Shown here: in pieces, positions 3,461 to 19,489 of the stretch
Position numbering within the stretch: the stretch's first letter is position 1
How the letters are laid out: the number at the start of each line of letters is the position of its first letter
From: a virus
Strand: one strand, 5' to 3'
Length of the DNA stretch: 34,576 bases
Virus record (IMG/VR): IMGVR_UViG_3300048818_000045
Location: 1-34,576 of that record
Program-made: the position numbers and the translations under genes
The notes under the pieces: generated by a model
What the model was told of the DNA's origin: nothing
Database searches by the model: none
The model's input: only the letters and a program-made list of their open reading frames with translations

Positions 3461-4762
3461 ATGGCACTTGAAATCGAGATGTGGCCAACGGACAAGCCGA
3501 TTGACTACGCACGTAATGCCCGCAAGATCACAGAGAAGGCTGTCGATAAAGTCGCCGCGTCCATTAAGGAGTTCGGCTTCCGTCAGCCCGTGGTCGTAGA
3601 TAAAGAAGGCGTTATCTGTATTGGGCATGTGCGCCGACGCTCTGCAAAAAAGCTAGGACTAACAGAGATACCCGTTCACGTCGCCTCGGATCTAACTCCA
3701 GGACAGATCAAAGCCTTGAGAATTATGGACAATAGGAGCAGCGACGAAGTGCAGTTTGACTTCGAGCTACTCGGTCCCGAATTGCTAGACCTCAAGTCAC
3801 TCAACATCGACCTCGCGCTAACTGGCTTCGATATGCCGGAGCTCGACCGTATCATGAACGTGGGTGGTGCGACCGAGGGTGAGGACGAAGTACCGGAGCC
3901 GCCAGCCAATCCGGTATCGCGGTTAGGTGACATGTGGTTGCTCGATAGCGCAGCGAAGGGCGGTACCGGCGAAACGCTTCAGCACCGTGTGTTGTGTGGC
4001 GACAGCACGAAGGCGGAAGATGTCAGCGTGCTGCTGGGCGGCGTGCCTGCTCCGTTTCTGATGTGCATCGACCAACCATACGGTGATTCATACGATCCGG
4101 AGTGGCGTCTCGACGCTGGCGTGAATAAGCCGTGGCAAACGCGCGCTGAAGGCAAAGTAAAGAACGACGACCGTGTGGATTGGTCCGCTGCTTACGCGCT
4201 ATTCCCCGGCGACGTTATCTACGCGTGGCACGCTGGCATCCACGCAGGGGAAGTGGCCGTTGGCCTTCATTCACAAGGGTTTCATATCCGCGCGCAAATC
4301 ATCTGGGCAAAGCCCAGTTTAGTCATTGGGCGTGGCCATTACCACTGGCAGCATGAGCCTTGCTGGATGGCGGTCCGTAAAGGAAAAACTTCCCATTGGT
4401 CGGGCGACCGCAAACAGTCCACTTTATGGCAAGTAGAGAATATGCATCGGACGCAAGGTAATGTGGATGACGGGAAAACGTCGCACTCAACCCAAAAACC
4501 CGTAGAGTTGTACAGGCGTCCAATCCTAAACCATACCAAAGCGAGCGATGCGGTCGAGGATTGCTTTTTAGGATCAGGTACGTGCCTCGTGGCTTGCGAA
4601 TTGACGGAACGCGTCTGCTACGGATGCGAGATCGAACCAAACTACGTTGATATGGCCGTAATTAGGTGGCAGAATTTAACGAAGCGCGCCGCCGTACTGC
4701 ACGGGGACGGGCGCACATTCGCCGAAGTAGAATGCGAGAGGGCGCAAAAGGCTGCCGCGTGA
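3461..4762 (+). CDS. ParB-domain DNA methyltransferase (N4/N6 type)
   Basis: The 433-residue protein fuses a ParB/sulfiredoxin-like N-terminus (about residues 10-110, with a GHVRRR motif matching the family's GHxR) to a DNA_methylase_N4/N6 domain. The latter has motif IV at residues 204-207 and, near the C-terminus, a FLGSGT motif I with a CYGCEIEP segment for S-adenosylmethionine binding, the permuted order of beta-class enzymes. Motif IV reads Asp-Gln-Pro-Tyr rather than Asp-Pro-Pro-Tyr, a change at a conserved proline that could affect activity. Such enzymes modify phage DNA, commonly against host restriction. The stop overlaps the GTG start of the second methyltransferase. Confidence 0.88.
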   Translation: MALEIEMWPTDKPIDYARNARKITEKAVDKVAASIKEFGFRQPVVVDKEGVICIGHVRRRSAKKLGLTEIPVHVASDLTPGQIKALRIMDNRSSDEVQFDFELLGPELLDLKSLNIDLALTGFDMPELDRIMNVGGATEGEDEVPEPPANPVSRLGDMWLLDSAAKGGTGETLQHRVLCGDSTKAEDVSVLLGGVPAPFLMCIDQPYGDSYDPEWRLDAGVNKPWQTRAEGKVKNDDRVDWSAAYALFPGDVIYAWHAGIHAGEVAVGLHSQGFHIRAQIIWAKPSLVIGRGHYHWQHEPCWMAVRKGKTSHWSGDRKQSTLWQVENMHRTQGNVDDGKTSHSTQKPVELYRRPILNHTKASDAVEDCFLGSGTCLVACELTERVCYGCEIEPNYVDMAVIRWQNLTKRAAVLHGDGRTFAEVECERAQKAAA

Positions 4763-7554: not shown

Positions 7555-9753
7555 ATGCGACCCGGTACAGAGTCAGACAACCTCGCGACGAATCCAGCGG
7601 TCATCAGCAACGCGCTAGGGACGTTTCGTCGCATCAAATATAATCCGCTCCCATCGCAGAATCGGTTTCATGGTTCACTCGCGAAGTTTCGCGGATTTTC
7701 TGGAAGTATCGGATCAGGTAAGTCAGCGGCGCTCGTACAGGAATCAATTAAGTTGGCGTTATGCAATGCGGGCTTGCTTGGCGTAGTCCTCGCGCCCACA
7801 TTTCCAGTCCTGCGCGACAGTACAGAGCGCTCTTTCTTCGACGTGCTGGAACGTAACGAGATTCCGTACGAACACCAGAAATCGGAGAACCTCGTAACGC
7901 TAACGGAGCCCGGAAGCGAAATTCTCTTCCGCTCAGCAAATGAATTTGAACGCCTACGTGGTACCAACATCGCGTGGTTTGCATTTGATGAGTTGACGTA
8001 CTGCGAAAAGGAATCATGGCTGCGAATGATGGGTCGGTTACGGCACCCGCTCGCAACCAAGCTGTCCGGCATCGCTGCATGGACACCTAACGGATTCGAT
8101 TGGGTCTACGATATGTTCGTTGGTCCGAATAAGGGCGAAGATTACGAGGCGGTACTGGCCACACCGCGCGAAAACGTATTCCTGCCATCCGACTTCTACG
8201 ATACGCTGGCGCGTTCCTACGACACCCAATTCGCAGCACAGGAACTTGAAGGCCAATACCTCAACATCTTCGCGGGCCGCTGCTACCACGCATTCGACCG
8301 CGAAGTGCATTTGAAAAACTCCATCTCCTACGGCTTCGACACCGGCTATCCGCTGTGTTGGGCGATGGACTTCAACGTCAACCCGATGGCAAGCGTGCTA
8401 CTTCAGTTCATCGACCATACGACGGCAGCCGACCGTTACGCGGGAATCAAAGTACAGCGCGCGCATGTGCTTGATGAGATTTGGATTCAGAATGCCACGA
8501 CGTTGCAGGCGTGCGAGGAGTTCGGTAACCGCACGCGCAAGATTGCGGAGTCGATGCACGGCGGATTGCAAGTGTACGTCTATGGCGATGCCTCTGGCGG
8601 CGCACGGCAGACGGCAGGTAGCGGCGCTCCGTCCGATTGGCAAACCGTGCGCGAATGGTTCAATCGTCATCCCGAGTACAAGGTAAGCTTCAAATACAAG
8701 AAGGCCAATCCGTTCCAAAAGGACCGCGTTGCGGCGGTTAACGGCGCACTACGGTCGTCCACTGGCCTTATCAATATGTACGTGGATGCGAAGTGTAAGC
8801 ATCTGATTGAGGACCTGGAAAAGGTTTCGTGGAAGCCAGGCACGGCAATGATCGACAAAGACAAAGACAAGATGCTGAGTCATATGTGTGTTACCGGCGA
8901 TACGAAAGTTTTCACCGTGCAGGGGCTTAAGCCGATCGGCGAGTTGGTTGGCGCGACCGGGTATGTTTACGGTTGGAGCCACAAGTTAAAGCGAACCTCC
9001 GTTGCGCGTTACGACGTTGCCGCCCAGACATTCGCGGACGCAGAAGTCTGGCGCGTGCAGTTGGATGATGGCTCCCATATCGACTGCACGATAAACCACA
9101 AGTTTTTAAGGCGCGATGGCTCCTACGCAATGCTTTCGGATCTTAGCGTAGGCGACTCACTGATGCCGATGTATTGGCGCGTCATGGAAAACGGGTACCT
9201 TAAAGTACGCAAAATGGAGTCTCCATCATTTCGTGATTGGGAGTGGGCGCATCGGTTGGTTGGAATGGATATCAAGGGCAAGAAGTCAAACCATCGCAAC
9301 CATTGGGACCACGATAATAAAGACAAGCAGGACAATCATCCAGACAATCTGATATTTAGAACAGCAAGCGAGCACATAGCGCACCACATGCAAGAACCGG
9401 ATGCCAATAAGCGCGGATTGCCAAATACGCGCAAAACTCCAATGAGTGACGAGGAACGCGCAGCACGCAGTGAACGTAGGAGCGCCGCTAATGTGGCTAT
9501 GTGGGCAGACCCTGTACGGCGTGCCGCTATCTCTGTCGCAATTCGCCAAAGCAAGCAGCGCCAACCGAACAACCATAAAATAACCGGAATTGAGCCGCTT
9601 GGAAGAGCGCCTGTCTATTGCCTGCATACCTCACTTGGAAACTTCGCCACGGACTCGCTCATTATCGGTAATTCGGATGCGCTTGGATACGCGATTGAGG
9701 CAGAGATGGGCTTACGCACGGCGGGCGGTTACAGCGCGCGGCAATTGATATAA
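7555..9753 (+). CDS. terL: Terminase large subunit containing an intein
   Basis: The packaging motor. Walker A GSIGSGKS is at residues 50-57, Walker B ending in Asp145-Glu146, the RNase H-like nuclease starts at the DFNVNP strand (Asp272), with Asp345 in YGDASGG and the last acidic residue Asp708 in SDALGY. Residues 445-706 are an intein inserted directly before SDALGY; removing it leaves about 470 residues, the normal TerL length. The mature protein packages DNA into the prohead and cuts it. Splicing is therefore needed to rejoin Asp708 with the rest of the nuclease site. The reading frame is intact throughout. Confidence 0.95.
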   Translation: MRPGTESDNLATNPAVISNALGTFRRIKYNPLPSQNRFHGSLAKFRGFSGSIGSGKSAALVQESIKLALCNAGLLGVVLAPTFPVLRDSTERSFFDVLERNEIPYEHQKSENLVTLTEPGSEILFRSANEFERLRGTNIAWFAFDELTYCEKESWLRMMGRLRHPLATKLSGIAAWTPNGFDWVYDMFVGPNKGEDYEAVLATPRENVFLPSDFYDTLARSYDTQFAAQELEGQYLNIFAGRCYHAFDREVHLKNSISYGFDTGYPLCWAMDFNVNPMASVLLQFIDHTTAADRYAGIKVQRAHVLDEIWIQNATTLQACEEFGNRTRKIAESMHGGLQVYVYGDASGGARQTAGSGAPSDWQTVREWFNRHPEYKVSFKYKKANPFQKDRVAAVNGALRSSTGLINMYVDAKCKHLIEDLEKVSWKPGTAMIDKDKDKMLSHMCVTGDTKVFTVQGLKPIGELVGATGYVYGWSHKLKRTSVARYDVAAQTFADAEVWRVQLDDGSHIDCTINHKFLRRDGSYAMLSDLSVGDSLMPMYWRVMENGYLKVRKMESPSFRDWEWAHRLVGMDIKGKKSNHRNHWDHDNKDKQDNHPDNLIFRTASEHIAHHMQEPDANKRGLPNTRKTPMSDEERAARSERRSAANVAMWADPVRRAAISVAIRQSKQRQPNNHKITGIEPLGRAPVYCLHTSLGNFATDSLIIGNSDALGYAIEAEMGLRTAGGYSARQLI
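8887..9672 (+). mobile_element. TerL intein with HNH homing endonuclease domain
   Basis: The 262-residue intein begins with Cys (CVTGDTKV, block A of the Hint fold), has a block-B-like segment ending IDCTINHKF, and ends in a C-terminal splice block LHTSLGNFATDSLIIGN followed by Ser, the usual +1 nucleophile. Gly rather than His precedes the terminal Asn. Between the splicing halves lies an HNH nuclease segment (WDHDNKDKQDNHPDNL and a later HIAHH). A region with AARSERRSAANVAMWADP resembles the NUMOD3 DNA-binding motif of homing nucleases. The insertion point interrupts the TerL nuclease active site, a typical intein target. Confidence 0.9.
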
Positions 9754-11057: not shown

Positions 11058-12713
11058 ATGGCCGCTCCCGCCTTAGTCCCCGCATCTACGTATCAAGTCC
11101 CGAGCCGCAAGGATGACAGCATCCGCGTCCCCGTGACAAAGCTCGACGTGCAAAGCGCCGAGCATATGCTCTATGCGGATGCGTGGACTTCCATCGATCT
11201 AATTCAAGCCTCCGGCGTGCGGATGAAAAATCAGGCCGAGCGATTCCTGATTAAGCGACCGAAGGAATTGTTTGACGTTTACCAGGAGCGCATCCGGCGC
11301 TTCACGCATGAGCCGATATTGGGCGTAGCGGTCGGCTGGTACATCTCGGCCATGTTCCGCAAAGACCCGACCATTCAGCAACCGAAAGGCGGCGGGACGG
11401 CAAGCGGCACTTGGTATGACGCGTTCCTTCAAAACTGCGATGGCGCGAATACGACGTTCATCGACGTGTGGCGCGAAATCTTCAAGCAGTTGTGCTTGAA
11501 TCGCACCTGCTACGTGCTGGTGGATCTTCCGAATACAGATAACCCCGGCGTCATTCCGATTAGCAGAGCGGACGAACAGGCGCAGGGTCTCGATAAGCCA
11601 CTGCTCACTGTGTACGATGCACGGCAGGTGATTAACTTCAGCGCCGATACGCGCGGAAATCTGGACTGGATCGTAATAAAGACGGAGCGCAAAGACCAGG
11701 AATTTCTTGGTGAGACGAAAGACGTAACGACGTGGTATTACTTCGACCGCCAGGAATACCGCGTGTATGAGCGTAAAGCTACGCACGGCACGACGTTGGA
11801 CCAAACTTATGTAATCTACAACAGCAGCGGTGACCGCATCGATAACAACTCTCCGATGGCCACGTTAATCGACCGTGGTCCGCATTCGCTGTCGAAGTTC
11901 AATCGCGTTCCCGTGCGGCGCATCGAAGTGCCCGACGCTCTGTGGTTAGGCAACCGTGCGTACATGCAGATGATGACGCACATCAACAAAGAGAACGAGT
12001 ACGACTGGGCGTTGACGATGAGTTGCCTCGCGCAACTGCTGGTTATCGGGCAGCAGGATCTTACCAACCTCACAATCACAGAGGCCGGCTTCCTGCATTT
12101 GCCGGATGCCGCCGCGCATATCGAGTGGCTTGAGCCAAAAGGCACGTCGTTCGAGGCGATGCAGAAGCGCATCGACAACTTACGCCAGGAAATCTTCCGC
12201 GTCCTATATCTCCAGGCGCAGGGCAAGGATTCCAGCGCAACTGCTGCCGGTGCGTCAGGCTATTCCAAAGAAGTAGACATGATTCCCGCATCCGACGCGC
12301 TGAACGGATTCGGTAAAGTCGTGCGCCAGGGCATGCAGAACGTGCTTGATGACGTATCGATGGCGCGCGATGGTATCGATACACTCAAGTGGGACGTGAA
12401 CGGATTTCGGTTTGAGGTCAAGCCCGCAACGATCTCAATCGCCTTGTGTGATGAATATCTGAGTCTGCAAATCCCCTCCGTCACCGCCGAGAAGGAAGTC
12501 CAGAAGCGAACAGTGCGCGATGTTCTCGACGGCTACAACCAAGATGTGATCGACAAGGCGTGCAAAGAAGTGGATGCGGCCCCGTCGCAGCAGGAGCTTA
12601 AGGAGCAGCAGGCGCAAACGCAAGCCTCAATGTACGGGCAGGCTTTCGATAAGGCCGACAATCGGGCTACGGCGAAGGATGAACTTGGGCAGTTGAGTAC
12701 GGCGAGTATTTGA
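11058..12713 (+). CDS. Portal protein (DUF4055-like)
   Basis: The 551-residue protein resembles DUF4055 portal proteins: an N-terminal helix-rich region with a conserved FxVYQERIRRF-like segment (residues 70-85), a long alpha/beta middle, and a Gln-rich C-terminal tail (about 510-535). The sequence around 300-360 (NENEYDWALTMSC-like helix and LGxxQ) fits the portal clip and stem. The portal forms the dodecameric ring where DNA enters and the tail attaches. Order (terminase, small genes, portal, scaffold, coat) supports the call. Confidence 0.8.
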   Translation: MAAPALVPASTYQVPSRKDDSIRVPVTKLDVQSAEHMLYADAWTSIDLIQASGVRMKNQAERFLIKRPKELFDVYQERIRRFTHEPILGVAVGWYISAMFRKDPTIQQPKGGGTASGTWYDAFLQNCDGANTTFIDVWREIFKQLCLNRTCYVLVDLPNTDNPGVIPISRADEQAQGLDKPLLTVYDARQVINFSADTRGNLDWIVIKTERKDQEFLGETKDVTTWYYFDRQEYRVYERKATHGTTLDQTYVIYNSSGDRIDNNSPMATLIDRGPHSLSKFNRVPVRRIEVPDALWLGNRAYMQMMTHINKENEYDWALTMSCLAQLLVIGQQDLTNLTITEAGFLHLPDAAAHIEWLEPKGTSFEAMQKRIDNLRQEIFRVLYLQAQGKDSSATAAGASGYSKEVDMIPASDALNGFGKVVRQGMQNVLDDVSMARDGIDTLKWDVNGFRFEVKPATISIALCDEYLSLQIPSVTAEKEVQKRTVRDVLDGYNQDVIDKACKEVDAAPSQQELKEQQAQTQASMYGQAFDKADNRATAKDELGQLSTASI

Positions 12714-12738
12714 CGCCCATCCGCGAATGTGATAAGTT
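12710..12738 (+). promoter_or_regulatory. Candidate promoter of the zinc-knuckle gene
   Basis: TTGACG (12710-12715, 5 of 6) and TAAGTT (12733-12738, 3 of 6) are separated by 17 nt. The ATG at 12746 lies 7 nt after the -10 box and has no ribosome binding site, so the message may be leaderless. The weak -10 makes this tentative. Confidence 0.3.
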
Positions 12739-12745
12739 GTAGTTT

Positions 12746-13042
12746 ATGGCAAAGATGAATGACGTAATTGCGGAGACAAGACCTCAACCGGGAACTCCCG
12801 CAGAGATCGCCTCCGAGCAAAAAGCATTATCGGATCGGCTGAAGCAATTAGCGGAACAGTTGGCCGCTGGTAAGGACTCCGAATTGGAGAAGTTATCCAA
12901 GGCGGTCGGGGAGTTCAACCGCATCTTCAACGAGTCCTACTCGCTTCAGCTCGGCGTAAAACCTAAGGCTGCGCGCAAATGTTCGCTGTGCCACCAGCCG
13001 GGCCATCGCGCTAGGCAATGCACGGGAATAGCGACGGCGTAA
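12746..13042 (+). CDS. Coiled-coil protein with a CCHC zinc knuckle
   Basis: A 98-residue protein. Residues 20-65 are a charged helix with heptad character. The C-terminus carries CSLCHQPGHRARQC, an exact C-x2-C-x4-H-x4-C zinc knuckle of the type found in retroviral nucleocapsid and some nucleic-acid-binding proteins, flanked by basic residues (KPKAARK). RNA or single-stranded DNA binding is the natural inference, not proven. It lies between portal and an HTH gene and lacks a ribosome binding site; a weak promoter precedes it. Confidence 0.65.
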   Translation: MAKMNDVIAETRPQPGTPAEIASEQKALSDRLKQLAEQLAAGKDSELEKLSKAVGEFNRIFNESYSLQLGVKPKAARKCSLCHQPGHRARQCTGIATA

Positions 13043-13315
13043 ATGCTAGATCTACCTGGTGGTGGAATACCGCGTCATGGTTACAGCGGCCTAATTGCCC
13101 TTTGCGGGCAGTCGCAAGAGGTAATGAGTAAGTATTGCGGGGTAATCGGAAATGCCAGATTGTACATCTTGTGGGCCTGCCGTGAATACACCCAAGCGAA
13201 ACTGGCGCGGCACTTGGGATTCTCCACTTCCTACCTAAACGACGTGATTAAGGGCAAGCGCGCGATTACGGAGGCGTTTGTGCAGCGGGTTATTGAACGC
13301 GGGGAAATGAAGTAA
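13043..13315 (+). CDS. XRE-like helix-turn-helix protein
   Basis: A 90-residue protein whose C-terminal half (from about residue 39) has the pattern of a Cro/CI-type HTH: a Tyr-Thr-Gln-x-Lys-Leu-Ala helix, a turn, and FSTSYLNDVIKGKRAIT as recognition helix and loop. The N-terminal 38 residues are glycine-rich and may not be translated; an in-frame ATG at 13124 is possible but its GAGG is only 2 nt away. It may act as a small transcription regulator, here within a head-gene cluster. The TAA overlaps the next ATG (TAATG). Confidence 0.6.
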   Translation: MLDLPGGGIPRHGYSGLIALCGQSQEVMSKYCGVIGNARLYILWACREYTQAKLARHLGFSTSYLNDVIKGKRAITEAFVQRVIERGEMK

Positions 13316-13626
13316 TGTTCAAAATAGTCCGAGTCCAACTCGCACAAAGCGGAACGCTCCAGAAGCTCGATACGCCCATTGCTCTCGTGGCGTGCGATGA
13401 GCGTGATTGTGGCGCGTACATCTCGCTTCAGTTTCCGTTCGCCAACGCACGCGAAGGCCACGTCCAGCTACTACCAGCGCTGGCGCAGAACGGATGGCTG
13501 ATTGACCTAGACATGCATCGATGCCCAGGCCACGCGAAAGAATTATTGGCCGCGCAGAATCTTGTGCAGATCGCCAAATCCATACCGCACATTATCGACG
13601 TGAATCCAGATAGGAAGGTCCAGTAA
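13315..13626 (+). CDS. Hypothetical protein
   Basis: A 103-residue protein whose ATG overlaps the upstream stop (TAATG) and whose stop overlaps the next ATG in the same way, so three consecutive genes are translationally linked. It has three cysteines and two histidines (CDERDC near 27, HRCPGH near 68-73) that might bind metal. No family is recognised. Confidence 0.55.
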   Translation: MFKIVRVQLAQSGTLQKLDTPIALVACDERDCGAYISLQFPFANAREGHVQLLPALAQNGWLIDLDMHRCPGHAKELLAAQNLVQIAKSIPHIIDVNPDRKVQ

Positions 13627-13787
13627 TGGCAACCGTGGAGATGTACGGATTCGTAGACCAGTACGGCGTTACAATGCCAGCGCCGGGGTTTGAACACCTT
13701 ATCGGCGAACCGCCTCCGCACCGATGGGTAATCGGCAGCAATGGATTGCCTGTGTACACGGAACTGCCGGAAGATACAAATGAGTAA
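13626..13787 (+). CDS. 53-residue hypothetical protein
   Basis: A short gene starting at the ATG that overlaps the preceding TAA and ending at TAA 13787, just inside the next gene's start. The product is acidic, with a Pro-rich middle (IGEPPPHRW) and no motif I recognise. Its existence rests on the overlap chain on both sides. Function is unknown. Confidence 0.45.
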   Translation: MATVEMYGFVDQYGVTMPAPGFEHLIGEPPPHRWVIGSNGLPVYTELPEDTNE

Positions 13788-16089
13788 CGGAGCAGCATTG
13801 TCTGAATCGCTAGGATGTATTAGTCGTGACCTTCGAGAAGTGCAATCTCCGTCTATTAACGCAAACATGGAATCTAGACGGGTAAGCGCGGAGGTAGCCG
13901 CTTTCCTAGTCGAGGTTGCCAAGCATAAGCCGCAGGACGACAACGCGCTGCGATGCTACGAGTGGGCGTTCCAGTTGGACCCTGCGTCCGGCGTGGCCGT
14001 GAACGCCATAGGTCGATGCCTGTTGCTCAAAGGCAAACATTACGAAGCCGCTGACGCATTTACTATCGCGTGCGCCTTATTGCCAGCATCACCGGAGCCG
14101 TTGGTCAATCTGGCTGCTGCGAATATTGCGTACGGTGATTACACTCATGCTGAGTGGGCTTGTTCTAAAGCGGTTAAACTAAACAAGCAGTTCCCCGCCG
14201 CATACTCGCATTGGGCTGCTGCGCTAGAACGCCAAGAAAAGTGGGATGCGGCTGAGGATATCATCCGCATGGGCTTACTTGCCTGCTCCGATGACCACGA
14301 CTTACTGTATGCGCAGGCGATGTACCTGCTGAAGTCCGCCAGCACGCCAGCGGAATGGAAGCGCGCGTGGGAATGTTACGAGCATCGGCCCGCGCATGTA
14401 CAGTTAGTAGAACGCCTCGACAACATCCAGGAGTGGAAAGGCGAGTCACTGAAAGGCCACAATCTACTAGTTTGTGCGGAGCAGGGATTGGGCGACCAAA
14501 TCATGTTCGCGCGGTATATTCCAGCGCTGGCGTTGGCTGCGGACAAAGTTCACGCGCATGTCAGGCCAGAACTAGTTAGGCTGTTCGTGAATAGCTTTGC
14601 ATCTGATGGCAACACAGCAAAAGATCTTTCGCCGCGAGTTCACATCACTACAACCGAATCAGAACTACCCGCCGATATCGACCGCTGGGTAGCGATGGGA
14701 AGTTTGCCTGCCTATTTCGAGCACATCCCGAACCCGCATCCCTCATACGAAAATCCAGTATACAGACAACTACGATTGCGCTTAAACGAGCGCTATCTCG
14801 CCGGCGAAAGAAGGCCCATCAACGACGGCGTCTATCGCGTTGGCCTGTGCTGGCGCGGCAACCCGGCGCACTATCAAGATCCGATGCGGTCAGTGAGTTT
14901 CGATGCATGGCGTCCGCTATTAGAACTTCCTGAATGCCGGTTCTTCTCGCTACAACAAGACGATACGGAATCGGGTCTAGTCAATCTGTGCGCTAATTCG
15001 GTAGACATGCAAGAGACAGCGGACGAGATCGACGCGCTCGATCTGGTAATAACCGTTGATACGGCGATTGCACATTTAGCCGGCGCGCTAGGCGTTCCGT
15101 TCGTGCTTATACAACCGACTACATACAGCGATTGGCGCTGGCATCGCGCATGGTATGCGACGCATCTCGGAGTTGCGCGGAGTGTTACGCGGTTTCCAAT
15201 CGAAAGCCTTGACGACTTTAACGTAAAGCAGCAATCGGCCATAGCCAAACAGGCGTACGATAACCACGAAGTGCCTGTGGCGAACGAAGACGTTATCGAA
15301 ATCCCATTCACGTCCGTATCCGACTGCCGCTACGGTCGCATGAAGTACTATCCGACCGACAAATGGCTAGGCCGCAGCCTTGAAACGTATGGCGAGTGGA
15401 GCGAATCCGAAGTTGACCTATTCCGCGCGCTTGTGAAACCCGGCGACCACGTAGCGGATATTGGCGCGAACATCGGTAGCCATACCATCGCACTAAGTGC
15501 CATTGTTGGGGCGGAAGGCATGGTCCACGCGTTTGAGCCGTTCCCGGCCACGTATAAGGTCCTGCTCGACAACATAACGTCGTGCTTGGCGCTTGGTGAC
15601 GTGCTACTAGATGTGCGCAACTGCGCGCTAGGCGAACGCGAGGAAATCATCCGCTGCGGCAAGCCCGACCCGCGCAACCCCGGTGGGTACGAATTGAAGG
15701 AAGGCGACGAAGCGGATATTCAGGTGCGTCGGTTGGACGACCTGGATATTGAGCGGCTGGACTTCGCGAAGATCGACGTTGAGGGGTTCGAAATGCAAGT
15801 ACTCAACGGCGGCGAAGAAACCATAGCGCGATGCCGACCGATCCTGTACGTAGAGGCCGACCGTCCCGGAGCGTACTCCGCTATCTCGCATTGGATGATG
15901 GAGCACGGTTACCGCGTGCATCTGCACAAGCCGCCGCTGTTCAACCCGCAGAACTTCAACGGGTACCCTACGAACGTATGGGGCAATATCGTTAGCTTAA
16001 TGCTGCTTGGCATTCCGTGCGAGAAGTACCCCGAGGTGGACGGAATTAAGAATCTGGAGCGGGTACGACTGAAGAAGGTTGGGATATGA
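13780..16089 (+). CDS. TPR - glycosyltransferase - FkbM methyltransferase fusion
   Basis: A 769-residue protein from the ATG at 13780, which has GGAAG just upstream and overlaps the previous gene by 8 nt. Residues about 30-210 form TPR-like helical repeats. Residues about 210-450 match the glycosyltransferase (GT9/TPR-linked) fold, with GLCWRGNP near 355 and the nucleotide-sugar motif DTAIAHLAGALGVP at 427-440. Residues about 535-730 are an FkbM-type methyltransferase, with VADIGANIG at 558-566 and KIDVEGFE at 664-671. Such enzymes usually transfer and O-methylate sugars on surface polysaccharides. Here it may decorate the virion or alter the host surface. The stop overlaps the next start (ATGA). 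Confidence 0.85.
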   Translation: MSNGAALSESLGCISRDLREVQSPSINANMESRRVSAEVAAFLVEVAKHKPQDDNALRCYEWAFQLDPASGVAVNAIGRCLLLKGKHYEAADAFTIACALLPASPEPLVNLAAANIAYGDYTHAEWACSKAVKLNKQFPAAYSHWAAALERQEKWDAAEDIIRMGLLACSDDHDLLYAQAMYLLKSASTPAEWKRAWECYEHRPAHVQLVERLDNIQEWKGESLKGHNLLVCAEQGLGDQIMFARYIPALALAADKVHAHVRPELVRLFVNSFASDGNTAKDLSPRVHITTTESELPADIDRWVAMGSLPAYFEHIPNPHPSYENPVYRQLRLRLNERYLAGERRPINDGVYRVGLCWRGNPAHYQDPMRSVSFDAWRPLLELPECRFFSLQQDDTESGLVNLCANSVDMQETADEIDALDLVITVDTAIAHLAGALGVPFVLIQPTTYSDWRWHRAWYATHLGVARSVTRFPIESLDDFNVKQQSAIAKQAYDNHEVPVANEDVIEIPFTSVSDCRYGRMKYYPTDKWLGRSLETYGEWSESEVDLFRALVKPGDHVADIGANIGSHTIALSAIVGAEGMVHAFEPFPATYKVLLDNITSCLALGDVLLDVRNCALGEREEIIRCGKPDPRNPGGYELKEGDEADIQVRRLDDLDIERLDFAKIDVEGFEMQVLNGGEETIARCRPILYVEADRPGAYSAISHWMMEHGYRVHLHKPPLFNPQNFNGYPTNVWGNIVSLMLLGIPCEKYPEVDGIKNLERVRLKKVGI

Positions 16090-16235
16090 CGGTAGAAAAT
16101 CCAGCGTACATCCTGCTCGATATCTTGCGCCGCAGCGGGTGGGACGACAGCGAGATTGACCTAGCGTCCTTTGATGCCATGGCGCGATACTGCGAGAATC
16201 CCGTGCCGTATCCAGAGACTAAAGAGTCGGCATGA
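16086..16235 (+). CDS. 49-residue protein resembling a tail-tip (gpJ) segment
   Basis: This short gene begins at an ATG overlapping the fusion gene's TGA and ends at TGA 16235 inside the next start. Residues 5-38 (NPAYILLDILRR..., IDLASFDAMARYC) look like the motif NP-x-x-x-x-DLL...iD..SF...A.YC common in phage tail-tip host-specificity proteins. A free-standing 49-residue copy in a head operon is odd; it may be a relic or an independent small protein with similar local sequence. Similarity is by eye only. Confidence 0.45.
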   Translation: MTVENPAYILLDILRRSGWDDSEIDLASFDAMARYCENPVPYPETKESA

Positions 16236-16525
16236 TTTGTGGCCTACTTTACCGCGTAACCATGCGCTTAGCGCACCGCTTCAACTGGCACTACGCGCCG
16301 CCCGTGCATCCCGAAGGCGATACGGTGCTGTGGTGTAAGTGGTGCGGATTACGGCAGAAGACGGCGAGTGCGCCGGTGAACAGCATCCACGTACACGCGA
16401 TGGATAGCGCGGCGTTTAACGACGCATTGGGTCGCTGCTCAACAGGGGCTCTCGTGACGTCGCTCCGAAAAGAATTAGGCTCAGCCTACATAAAAAGAGC
16501 ATCCAATGAGCCGCTTCGATCCTGA
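16232..16525 (+). CDS. Conserved phage hypothetical with CxxC
   Basis: A 97-residue protein coupled to the previous gene by an ATGA overlap. Residues 10-42 contain RLAHRFNWHYAPP and a GDTVLWCKWCGLR segment, a recurrent pattern in small phage proteins with a single CxxC knuckle and nearby His residues that could complete a zinc site. The remainder is unremarkable. The start of the next gene overlaps its end by 20 nt. Function is unknown. Confidence 0.62.
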   Translation: MICGLLYRVTMRLAHRFNWHYAPPVHPEGDTVLWCKWCGLRQKTASAPVNSIHVHAMDSAAFNDALGRCSTGALVTSLRKELGSAYIKRASNEPLRS

Positions 16526-16838
16526 ATGGAAATTACTCCCGCACTATGCGCGCATGTACGTTGACAAGCACACGGGAATCATACTCGGCTCTATCGATAC
16601 TGGCGATGTGTTTTACGCGGCAGGCGGAGTGCCGCCGGATGCCATTTGGCATAGCCAGATCGATGATGTCGTAGCGGGCAAGACGATGAGGTCCCGCCAT
16701 GTTGGCGAAGACTCGGCAACCGATACGGTGGAACGATTTGTGCGGATGGCCGAAAATGGGACGCCTAACTGGTATGAATTTTACAGAGCCAAGGTCCTAG
16801 CGAGATTCGGAAAAAGGAGCGACAGTAATGGCAAGTAA
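16506..16838 (+). CDS. Hypothetical protein
   Basis: A 110-residue protein with an aromatic-rich N-terminal half and a charged C-terminal helix (SATDTVERFVRMAEN). No family recognised. A weak AAGAG sits 7 nt before the ATG. It overlaps the preceding gene by 20 nt and the following one by 11 nt, so it is part of the same transcription unit as the ferritin-like gene. Confidence 0.6.
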   Translation: MSRFDPEWKLLPHYARMYVDKHTGIILGSIDTGDVFYAAGGVPPDAIWHSQIDDVVAGKTMRSRHVGEDSATDTVERFVRMAENGTPNWYEFYRAKVLARFGKRSDSNGK

Positions 16839-17295
16839 AACAATCGATAACCTAATCACAGCAGCCCAGATGGAAGCATCGCTGGCCGGTCAGTATTCGC
16901 TCGACATGACCGTCCTGAAATACCAGGACGTGAAATGGGTCAGCAGGTTCATCAAGGGCATGTATAAAGATGCCGAATGCTGGCTGCGTGGCGATATCAT
17001 GGAGCGCCTGTGCCAGTTGGGTGCCAGCGTCAAGTATCAGGCGGACGCCGTGGTCTACAACGATAGCGTGGCCGCGATCCTCGACCTTGCTATCGGCAAC
17101 GAGACGGCGGTTGCGGAATTCGCGGAGACCGCCGGTGCGGCTGCGATGGACGAAGGCGACCGGCATACAGCGCATCTCTTCGATCATCTCCAGAAGCGCA
17201 CAGACCGTCACGTCGGCGAACTCAAGGCGCAGCGCGCGCTCGTTACCAAGTTGGACGAAGCGAATTACATCGGCTCCAGATTGTCCGATGGTTAA
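16828..17295 (+). CDS. Bacterioferritin-like (ferritin-fold) protein
   Basis: The 155-residue, nearly all-helical protein has the length and helix pattern of bacterioferritin (about 158 residues). A by-eye alignment to E. coli Bfr puts Glu16 on E18, Tyr23 on Y25, Glu50 on E51, Glu92 on E94 and His128 on H130, while H54 becomes Leu53 and E127 becomes Thr125. MERLCQLG (58-65) fits the ERILFLEG turn, and the last helix ends in NYIGSRL, like NYLQAQI in Bfr. Met52, the haem ligand, is Cys51. Ferritins store iron as oxide in 24-mer shells; the altered ferroxidase site may make it a structural or DNA-protection variant. It overlaps the previous gene by 11 nt. Confidence 0.55.
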   Translation: MASKTIDNLITAAQMEASLAGQYSLDMTVLKYQDVKWVSRFIKGMYKDAECWLRGDIMERLCQLGASVKYQADAVVYNDSVAAILDLAIGNETAVAEFAETAGAAAMDEGDRHTAHLFDHLQKRTDRHVGELKAQRALVTKLDEANYIGSRLSDG

Positions 17296-17337
17296 TCGGT
17301 AGCGTCTTTCTGTGTCCAGTTTAGCCAGAGCGCGCTC

Positions 17338-17565
17338 GTGGATGAGGTCCGCAATTACATCCAAGCCTTACTGGACCACGACGACACTGGCTGTGAAGCT
17401 TCCTGCACTGAATGCCGAGATGCGCAGCGTATCATCGAAATCGTCAGGGCGTTCATCTTTTACACGGAACTGCATCGAGTAATTCCAGACGCATCAGTTC
17501 CGGCTGTACAAGCGCTAACGGAATGTCAGTTTCTCTGGCAACAATCGCAAAAGTCTAAGCAGTAA
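17338..17565 (+). CDS. Small cysteine-containing protein
   Basis: A 75-residue protein starting at GTG 17338. Residues 13-26 hold HDDTGCEASCTEC, an acidic His/Cys cluster that could bind zinc, followed by a hydrophobic helix (IIEIVRAFIFY) and a basic tail. This pattern resembles short zinc-finger anti-sigma domains only superficially. No clear ribosome binding site is present. It lies between the ferritin-like and scaffold genes. Confidence 0.45.
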   Translation: MDEVRNYIQALLDHDDTGCEASCTECRDAQRIIEIVRAFIFYTELHRVIPDASVPAVQALTECQFLWQQSQKSKQ

Positions 17566-17575
17566 ATCAAACGGG

Positions 17576-17591
17576 CCGCGCCGTCTCGCGG
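17576..17591 (+). other. Stem-loop upstream of the scaffold gene
   Basis: CCGCG (17576-17580) pairs with CGCGG (17587-17591) over a 6-nt loop. It lies 20 nt before the ATG of the scaffold gene, just ahead of its AAAAAAGGA ribosome binding site. It lacks a T-run and could affect processing or translation rather than terminate. Confidence 0.3.
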
Positions 17592-17611
17592 GAGAACCAA
17601 AAAAGGACAGT

Positions 17612-18412
17612 ATGGATAAACAGGGACAAGCCGCCGCTGCGGGCGCTTCCGATACAAACAACGCAGGAGCAGGTACGGCAGATGCGCCGCCAGCATGGTT
17701 TGCTGCTGCACTGGCGACAGCACTCAACGATACAAGCACCAAGTTGGAACAGTCGATGGATAAGAAGATCAATGCCATCGACAAGCGGTTGAAGGCATTC
17801 TCAAAAACGCCGGAAGCGCAAACTGACGCCAATGGAACGGCAGTTGCCGCCGCTGAAGGCACAGACGCCGCGCACGCGGCTGACGCCGCAAACGGAGCGA
17901 ATGGCACCAACGGGACAGCCGCCGCTGGCGACAGCGACCCGAAGGCAAACGCCGCAGTCCTTCGCTTACAGCGTGAACTGTCAGCAGTGATGAGTAAAGT
18001 GACCGTGCTGGAGCAGGACAAGGAAACGCTGAAGAAAGACGGCATGGCGAAGGATCGAGCCATAGCGCTGAAGGATGCGATGGAAGGCGTTCCGTGGTTC
18101 AACGACACTACGCGGGATATCGTGTTCAAGACTCAACTGCCAGAGATGAAGCAGGACGACCGAGGCGCGTACTTCTTCGAGACCACGGACGGCAAGCCGT
18201 TCTTCGCTAAGGATTGGATTGAGAAGATCGCCACAGAAAATCCCAACTGGCTCAAGGCGGAAGGTCGCCGCGGCTCCGGCGCTACCAACGGCAATATCCT
18301 ATGGCAAAAGGGCGGAACGAACCTAGGGGATATCACGCAAGAAAACGTCAAAGACAGAGGTAAGCGAGACGCAATCGCCGCCGATATCGTTTCGGTCTTG
18401 ACAAACAGATAG
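17612..18412 (+). CDS. Putative scaffolding protein
   Basis: A 266-residue protein directly before the coat gene, as scaffolds usually are. The first 110 residues are Ala/Gly/Asn/Thr-rich and low in hydrophobics, residues 110-145 form a predicted coiled coil (LQRELSAVMSKVTVLEQDKETLKK), and the C-terminal half has a structured segment (WFNDTTRDIVFKTQLPE) and a charged end. This matches internal scaffolds that template the prohead and then leave. A strong AAAAAAGGA ribosome binding site precedes it. The coat promoter starts inside its last codons. Confidence 0.72.
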   Translation: MDKQGQAAAAGASDTNNAGAGTADAPPAWFAAALATALNDTSTKLEQSMDKKINAIDKRLKAFSKTPEAQTDANGTAVAAAEGTDAAHAADAANGANGTNGTAAAGDSDPKANAAVLRLQRELSAVMSKVTVLEQDKETLKKDGMAKDRAIALKDAMEGVPWFNDTTRDIVFKTQLPEMKQDDRGAYFFETTDGKPFFAKDWIEKIATENPNWLKAEGRRGSGATNGNILWQKGGTNLGDITQENVKDRGKRDAIAADIVSVLTNR

Positions 18413-18547: not shown

Positions 18548-19489
18548 ATGCTAACTTCGCAAAACGTCGCGGAAGCGATTGTTAAGCTGGTAGCCGCCGA
18601 AGCCCTTGCTCCGATTGTGGGTAACTTAGTCCTCGGTGGACTGGTTAACCGCGATTACGAACGCACGCTGGCCCAGGCCGGGGATACCGTTAACATCGCC
18701 ATTCCGCCTATTATGGCGGCAAACGTCATTGGTGAGGGCGGCACGGTTACCAACCAGCAGCCAAATCTTGGCAACGCCCAGATCGTGCTTAACACGCACG
18801 TTGAATCGACCTTCTCGATTCCCGACGTAACCAAGGCCATCGCCGTACCAGATTTGCTGCAAACGTATGTCCAACCGGCGATTATCGCGATTGCCGAGAA
18901 GATCGAAACGGACATCCTTTCGCTGTACTCCAACTTCACGGCCAACACCCCAGTCGGCTCCGCATCGTCCATCACCGAATCGTTTATCGACTCGGCTGAG
19001 ACGGCTTTGTTTACCGCGAAGGTTCCCACGAACCAGCCCAAGTTTTTGCTGGTGAGCGCCGGTACCTTTTCCGCGATGCGCCAGATTTCGCGCTTCACCG
19101 AATTCCAGACGATGGGTTTTGCGGCTGGCGGTCCTGGCGGAACTAACGGTATCGAGACCGCTAACATGGCCGGTGCTGGTTCGATGGGCGCAAACGGGAA
19201 AATCAAGGACTTCCTTGTATTCCGTTCGCAGTTTGTGCAGAAGCCTTCGACCACCACCTACAACATTGCGTTTGCCCGCGACGCCATCGGCTTGGCAATT
19301 CGCTCTCTCGCGCAGCCGATTCCCGGCACTGGCGCGGTCGCAGCGTATACCGAAATGGGTAACTTCGGGCTTCGCATCATCATGAGCTACGCGCCCAATT
19401 CGCTCGCGCAACAGTTCACCGTCGATTGCCTGTATGGTGTTGCGGTCATTCGTAACAACTTCGGCATCCAAGTTCAGAGCAATAACTAA
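18548..19489 (+). CDS. Major capsid protein (P22-coat-like, HK97 fold)
   Basis: The 313-residue protein has a GDTVNIAIPP strand near residue 45, a VESTFSIPD segment and the AIAEKIETDIL spine helix around 118-128, all seen in P22 coat-like capsid proteins of the HK97 fold. It is preceded by TTAGGAGACTTGC, a strong ribosome binding site, its own promoter candidate and a scaffold gene. It should form the icosahedral shell. Length is below P22 gp5 (430), so the large insertion domain of P22 coat is probably absent. Confidence 0.88.
   Translation: MLTSQNVAEAIVKLVAAEALAPIVGNLVLGGLVNRDYERTLAQAGDTVNIAIPPIMAANVIGEGGTVTNQQPNLGNAQIVLNTHVESTFSIPDVTKAIAVPDLLQTYVQPAIIAIAEKIETDILSLYSNFTANTPVGSASSITESFIDSAETALFTAKVPTNQPKFLLVSAGTFSAMRQISRFTEFQTMGFAAGGPGGTNGIETANMAGAGSMGANGKIKDFLVFRSQFVQKPSTTTYNIAFARDAIGLAIRSLAQPIPGTGAVAAYTEMGNFGLRIIMSYAPNSLAQQFTVDCLYGVAVIRNNFGIQVQSNN

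Follow-up and report, generated by a model that had tools for sequence, protein, structure and literature searches.

A divergent bacterioferritin-type protein with altered ferroxidase ligands, encoded in an accessory island of a phage head module

Introduction

Bacterioferritin (Bfr) genes are already known from viruses, where they have been described as iron-oxidising auxiliary genes, and one of them, carried by a vOTU from Vrana Lake sediment, is reported to be under purifying selection (PMC10904782). Dps-like proteins are known from phages too (PMC6669764, PMC8008677). Among cellular Bfrs there are natural subunits that lack a working centre: Bfr2 of M. gryphiswaldense carries changes at E18, H54 and H131 and assembles into 24-mers together with a catalytic partner (PMC6529640). 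The four-fold pore of Bfr is associated with the motif NYLQ (PMC12120770). A further system that bears on the present locus is the encapsulin with ferritin-like cargo, in which the gene for an HK97-fold protein lies near that for a ferritin-like protein (PMC8346489).

Here we describe a ferritin-like gene located among the head genes of a phage (IMG/VR record IMGVR_UViG_3300048818_000045). The whole stretch of DNA analysed, positions 1 to 34,576 of that record, is referred to below as the window.

Identification of a remote bacterioferritin relative

The ferritin-like gene occupies positions 16828..17295 (+) and encodes a protein of 155 residues, which we describe as a bacterioferritin-type protein with a degenerate ferroxidase centre on the combined evidence of PF00210, a Bfr profile, the AF2 fold and dN/dS. 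The ORF has an ATG start and an AAGGAG ribosome site; this site is shared without change by the single relative found, a sister copy (93% identical) in a 68.5-kb contig (L003/G001). Its start lies 11 nt inside the end of an upstream 110-aa ORF (16506..16838, +).

Against Pfam-A, the window protein matched PF00210 (Ferritin) with E=7e-6 and 26.5 bits, and the sister copy scored 29.2 bits (gathering cut-off 24.5). Because the PF00210 match spans residues 56-136 only, a custom Bfr profile was made from nine Bfr or ferritin-like proteins, with the window protein left out. This profile scored the window protein at 36 bits over residues 1-148, whereas 2,000 shuffled versions of the protein reached 13.4 bits at most; among all ORFs in the loci that were fetched, it matched ferritin-family proteins only. 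A profile-profile comparison aligned 149 columns with a probability of 93%. On these sequence comparisons the ORF is a genuine, if remote and very divergent, relative of bacterioferritin, and the Bfr-like homology proposed in an earlier, sequence-only reading of the window was borne out. Two other candidates were discarded: an NCBIfam aminotransferase match (E=0.003), which fell far under its cut-off, and an antisense ORF (16852-17364), which is closed in the sister contig.

The NCBIfam model of the Bfr family (TIGR00754) gave no match to the window protein at E<=1. The protein is filed under the ferritin-like superfamily, outside the Bfr family, because its di-iron centre, haem ligand and family-model score, when tested, all departed from those of that family. 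Close relatives were sought by tblastn of phages and plasmids, in two scans of viral contigs and in 396 Acidobacteriota genomes; these searches returned the sister contig only, and the best match seen in the acidobacterial genome KBS 96 was its ordinary Bfr, at 26% identity.

Predicted structure

When AF2 was given just the two phage sequences, which are nearly identical, it produced a helical model of low confidence (pLDDT 48.7), the top PDB match of which was a Bfr at E 0.07, a value that is not significant alone. For a second run, four viral-contig Bfrs obtained by motif scans were added to the alignment. The resulting model reached a pLDDT of 80.1 and matched Bfr chains at a TM of about 0.8 and a Z of about 18 over 144 residues, a result with some circularity, Bfr sequences having guided the modelling. 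This model was least certain around E50 (pLDDT 58). A four-helix Bfr-type fold with a C-terminal segment is thus supported as a prediction, and the structure prediction and fold search that had been proposed as a check returned a four-helix bundle with Bfr as the top matches. Several predicted phage proteins in BFVD that carry prohead protease or Dps annotations (A0A6J7WIS1, A0A6J7XDU5 and others, about 290-679 aa) also match the ferritin-like model by fold, and may possibly represent ferritin-like domains fused to head proteins.

The sequence-only reading had also offered a Dps-type, DNA-protecting protein as an alternative. The presence of Dps-like proteins in other phages, noted above, lends this some weight; however, the best sequence and fold matches are to Bfr and not to Dps, the ligands described below occupy the intra-subunit positions of Bfr, and the Bfr C-terminal NY motif is present. 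We therefore do not favour a Dps-type protein and regard it as very improbable.

Ferroxidase ligands and haem site

Ligands were mapped using alignment to the Bfr profile together with MAFFT, with E. coli Bfr numbering as the reference; a global pairwise alignment with E. coli Bfr proved unreliable, and the profile alignment was used in its place. Both procedures reproduced an assignment made earlier by eye. Four of the six ferroxidase ligands are kept (E18 as E16, E51 as E50, E94 as E92 and H130 as H128), and two are lost, with H54 replaced by L53 and E127 by T125. The helix B region (about residues 36-63) contains no histidine, and therefore a register shift cannot restore H54. At the E127 position a local shift is possible, with D126 one residue from T125.

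Outside the di-iron centre, the Bfr haem ligand M52 is replaced by C51, and Bfr Tyr25 is kept as Y23. The C-terminus, ANYIGSRLSDG, is predicted to be helical and aligns with the NYLQ segment of Bfr, the motif itself reading NYIG (residues 146-149). The residues named as critical for Bfr assembly (PMC6529640) are retained only in part: D56 is replaced by G55 and Y45 is changed, as judged by alignment. Histidines are frequent in helix D (H113, H116, H120 and H128; residues 113-128, window 17164-17211), and they are the same in both phages.

This pattern bears on two alternative explanations. The gene could be an active iron-storage and detoxifying auxiliary metabolic gene, the product of which forms a cage that oxidises and stores iron via a modified centre and so guards the infected cell against Fenton chemistry. 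The four retained ligands and Y23 are consistent with such a role, as are the strong purifying selection reported below and the published purifying selection on the lake-sediment viral bfr gene (PMC10904782). Yet a histidine ligand and the bridging glutamate are both gone, helix B holds no histidine, the haem ligand is lost, and the combined changes E18Q, H54A and H131M drastically cut iron oxidation in M. gryphiswaldense (PMC6529640); active storage is, in our judgement, unlikely. Alternatively, only the fold may have been retained, in a protein whose role is structural or in binding and does not involve metal. The ligand and replaced positions are identical in both phages, and the persistence of four ligand positions unchanged in the pair (two sequences, and so a weak sample) argues against this explanation, even though the altered ligands, the lost haem methionine and the lack of a close cellular relative in the 396 Acidobacteriota genomes, or of one in phages or plasmids, would all fit it. 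We consider it rather unlikely.

Selection between the two phage copies

Comparison of the ferritin-like gene with its sister copy gave a dN of 0.041 and a dS of 0.603 (dN/dS 0.07), with 41 of the 56 differences at third positions. This ratio is close to those of the structural genes of the same phage pair, which were 0.034 for the portal, 0.019 for the coat and 0.057 for the tape-measure-like protein. The low dN/dS, together with ligand changes common to both phages, therefore places the gene under selection despite the altered centre; as estimated from this pair of copies, that selection is purifying and maintains the ferritin-like protein.

Head module and accessory island

Terminase, portal, coat and tape-measure-like genes form a module on one strand, which is also that of the ferritin-like gene. 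The portal protein is encoded at 11058..12713 (+; phrog_145, E=5e-35) and the major coat protein, which is P22-type (HK97-fold), at 18548..19489 (+; PF11651, 50.3 bits; phrog_283, E=6e-28). Directly before the coat gene is an ORF (17612..18412, +) with no family match, which from its position is a putative scaffold protein; homologues of this ORF lie directly before the coat gene in L004, L013 and L027.

The region between the portal and putative scaffold genes (12714..17611, +), delimited from portal-to-coat distances, constitutes an accessory island. It contains three small ORFs (12746..13626, +; one zinc-knuckle-like but below cut-off, one HTH and one unassigned), a 782-aa fusion of TPR, GT9-like and FkbM methyltransferase domains (13741..16089, +; Pfam, NCBIfam), a 97-aa ORF (16232..16525, +), the overlapping 110-aa ORF described above and the ferritin-like gene. 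The 97-aa and 110-aa ORFs are present in the sister contig, as is the fusion, the sister copy of which is 82.5% identical. A possible role for the fusion is sugar modification of the virion or host surface.

Relatives of the coat protein were drawn from viral contigs and genomes; portal and coat were both present in 22 of the viral loci and 74 of the genome loci. The portal-to-coat distance was 439-1074 bp in 94 of these 96 relatives, the exceptions being L013 (1.9 kb) and L093 (2.6 kb), compared with 5.8 kb in the window and 7.4 kb in the sister contig. The extra DNA consists of the small ORFs, the TPR/GT9-like/FkbM fusion and the ferritin-like gene. PF00210 had no match in 30 other viral records with coat relatives, many of which are fragments. 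The simplest reading is that an accessory island was inserted at a site usually holding the scaffold gene alone. The base composition of the island showed no clear difference from the rest of the window, and scans for promoters, terminators and repeats revealed nothing above chance marking its ends.

Two further features of the window were observed outside the island. In the terminase large subunit (gene at 7555-9753), an intein-like insertion that includes an HNH endonuclease region lies at about residues 440-705; the terminase ORF of the sister contig is much shorter, and the insertion seems to be absent there. A fusion of a ParB-like nuclease and a DNA methyltransferase is encoded at 3461-4762, with a second methyltransferase ORF downstream.

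The ferritin-like ORF ends 1,253 nt before the start of the coat gene, in line with an earlier estimate of about 1.3 kb, and this proximity had led to the suggestion of an encapsulin-like pairing of coat and cargo. Such a pairing is unsupported because the coat is P22-type and there is no room for the island in 94 of the 96 relatives. Classical (family 1) encapsulins are recognised by a stand-alone shell, and their cargo by a C-terminal loading peptide. The locus instead has a tailed-phage module, in which the P22-type coat gene is accompanied by those for terminase, portal and a tape-measure-like protein, with the ferritin-like gene in an island that most relatives lack; the C-terminus of the ferritin-like protein is the predicted helical segment, aligned with NYLQ, that is described above. 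The nearness of the two genes looks incidental, and the case warns against taking proximity to an HK97-fold coat gene for an encapsulin-like system. A second candidate pairing, in which a ferritin-like gene lies about 5 kb before the coat gene in L096 and L077, was rejected: that gene lies away from the head genes and on the opposite strand, and the arrangement is found in two syntenic genomes only.

Even in an ordinary phage head, the protein could be packaged as a ferritin-like head accessory or cargo, in or on the virion, and produced with the head genes. Its gene lies within the head module and on the same strand, similarity to the ferritin-like model is seen in the predicted structures of certain phage proteins annotated 'prohead protease', and a ferritin-like protein was detected by mass spectrometry of phage Sajous1, for which the authors suggest a tail role (PMC10892097). 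Set against this, almost none of the relatives with this type of coat have the gene, and between the two phages the coat is 99.7% identical whereas the ferritin-like protein differs by 7%. In addition, the locus encodes no encapsulin-type shell, and the C-terminus appears to be of Bfr type rather than a separate cargo tail. Packaging is accordingly quite unlikely, and it is improbable that the virion carries a ferritin-family protein, made inside the head operon, that delivers or holds metal with the genome.

Host assignment

The host is likely to be acidobacterial, an assignment made at phylum level only, because, of the 80 genome loci that best match the coat, 79 come from genomes titled as Acidobacteria or allied taxa; the remaining locus is titled Nevskia soli. 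The phage is probably one of soil or water Acidobacteria. A full Bfr (TIGR00754) was found in 34 of 119 Acidobacteriota genomes (about 30%), and therefore a Bfr partner exists in some hosts. No Bfd ferredoxin gene was found in either phage record.

Over 160 relatives of the coat were present in genomes. In L096 and L077, two acidobacterial genomes, the same terminase-portal-coat-tail cluster occupies the same chromosomal place and is about 85% identical along with its flanking genes; this cluster may represent a prophage maintained by vertical descent or a cluster akin to a gene-transfer agent.

Proposed role

The explanation that we prefer, and hold tentatively, is that the gene specifies an accessory, centre-deficient Bfr-type subunit, expressed late, that alters host iron handling, perhaps via co-assembly with the host Bfr. 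Under this explanation a diverged four-helix subunit of Bfr type would be carried as an accessory (moron-type) gene in the portal-scaffold island, its transcription would probably be late and with the head genes, and its site of action would most likely be the infected cell. The protein is probably not a normal ferroxidase because the site-A histidine and the bridging glutamate (and the haem methionine) are lost. E50, E92 and H128 remain together, and could allow weak metal binding. By analogy with Bfr2 of M. gryphiswaldense, the subunit might instead co-assemble with host bacterioferritin and change iron storage or release late in infection; in an alternative form of this explanation, it would build a cage able to bind metal but not to oxidise it. 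Cage formation and co-assembly are both uncertain because of the D56 to G55 replacement and the change at Y45. Also against the preferred explanation, a full Bfr occurs in only about 30% of the sampled Acidobacteriota genomes, neither phage record has a Bfd gene, and the comparison draws on a single sister sequence.

Comparison with known systems

The window protein resembles Bfr (TIGR00754; E. coli 1bcf, B. viridis 4am2) in its full-length homology, its predicted four-helix fold with a C-terminal segment, the residues E16, E50, E92, H128 and Y23, and a partial NYLQ motif. It differs from Bfr in its low identity (about 20%), in the replacement of H54, E127 and M52 by leucine, threonine and cysteine, and in the lack of an NCBIfam Bfr match. 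Encapsulins with ferritin-like cargo (PMC8346489) likewise have an HK97-fold protein gene near a ferritin-like gene, but here the coat is P22-type and accompanied by portal and terminase, and the ferritin-like gene beside it is not conserved.

Another parallel is found in the hetero-oligomeric, non-catalytic Bfr subunits (M. gryphiswaldense Bfr2, PMC6529640; S. oneidensis hetero-Bfr, PMC12120770; PDB 9h1u, 9iig), which have also lost ferroxidase ligands while selection keeps the subunit. The ligands lost are not the same ones, however, and the phage gene has no adjoining gene for a catalytic partner; furthermore, M. gryphiswaldense Bfr2 retains haem binding, whereas the phage protein is without the haem methionine. 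The Vrana Lake bfr (PMC10904782) is similar in that it too is a viral-contig Bfr gene subject to purifying selection, but was reported as Thermoproteota-derived and assumed to be iron-oxidising, while for the window gene no close cellular source was found and the centre is altered. Viral Bfr genes and Dps-like phage proteins are thus not new in themselves; what sets the present case apart is the loss of canonical ligands under continued selection, in a gene that has no close cellular source among those searched and that resides in an island between portal and scaffold. A Bfr fold that selection has kept while the canonical centre was lost suggests, for some viral ferritins, a different mode of action from that of iron-oxidising auxiliary genes, for example the alteration of host Bfr cages.
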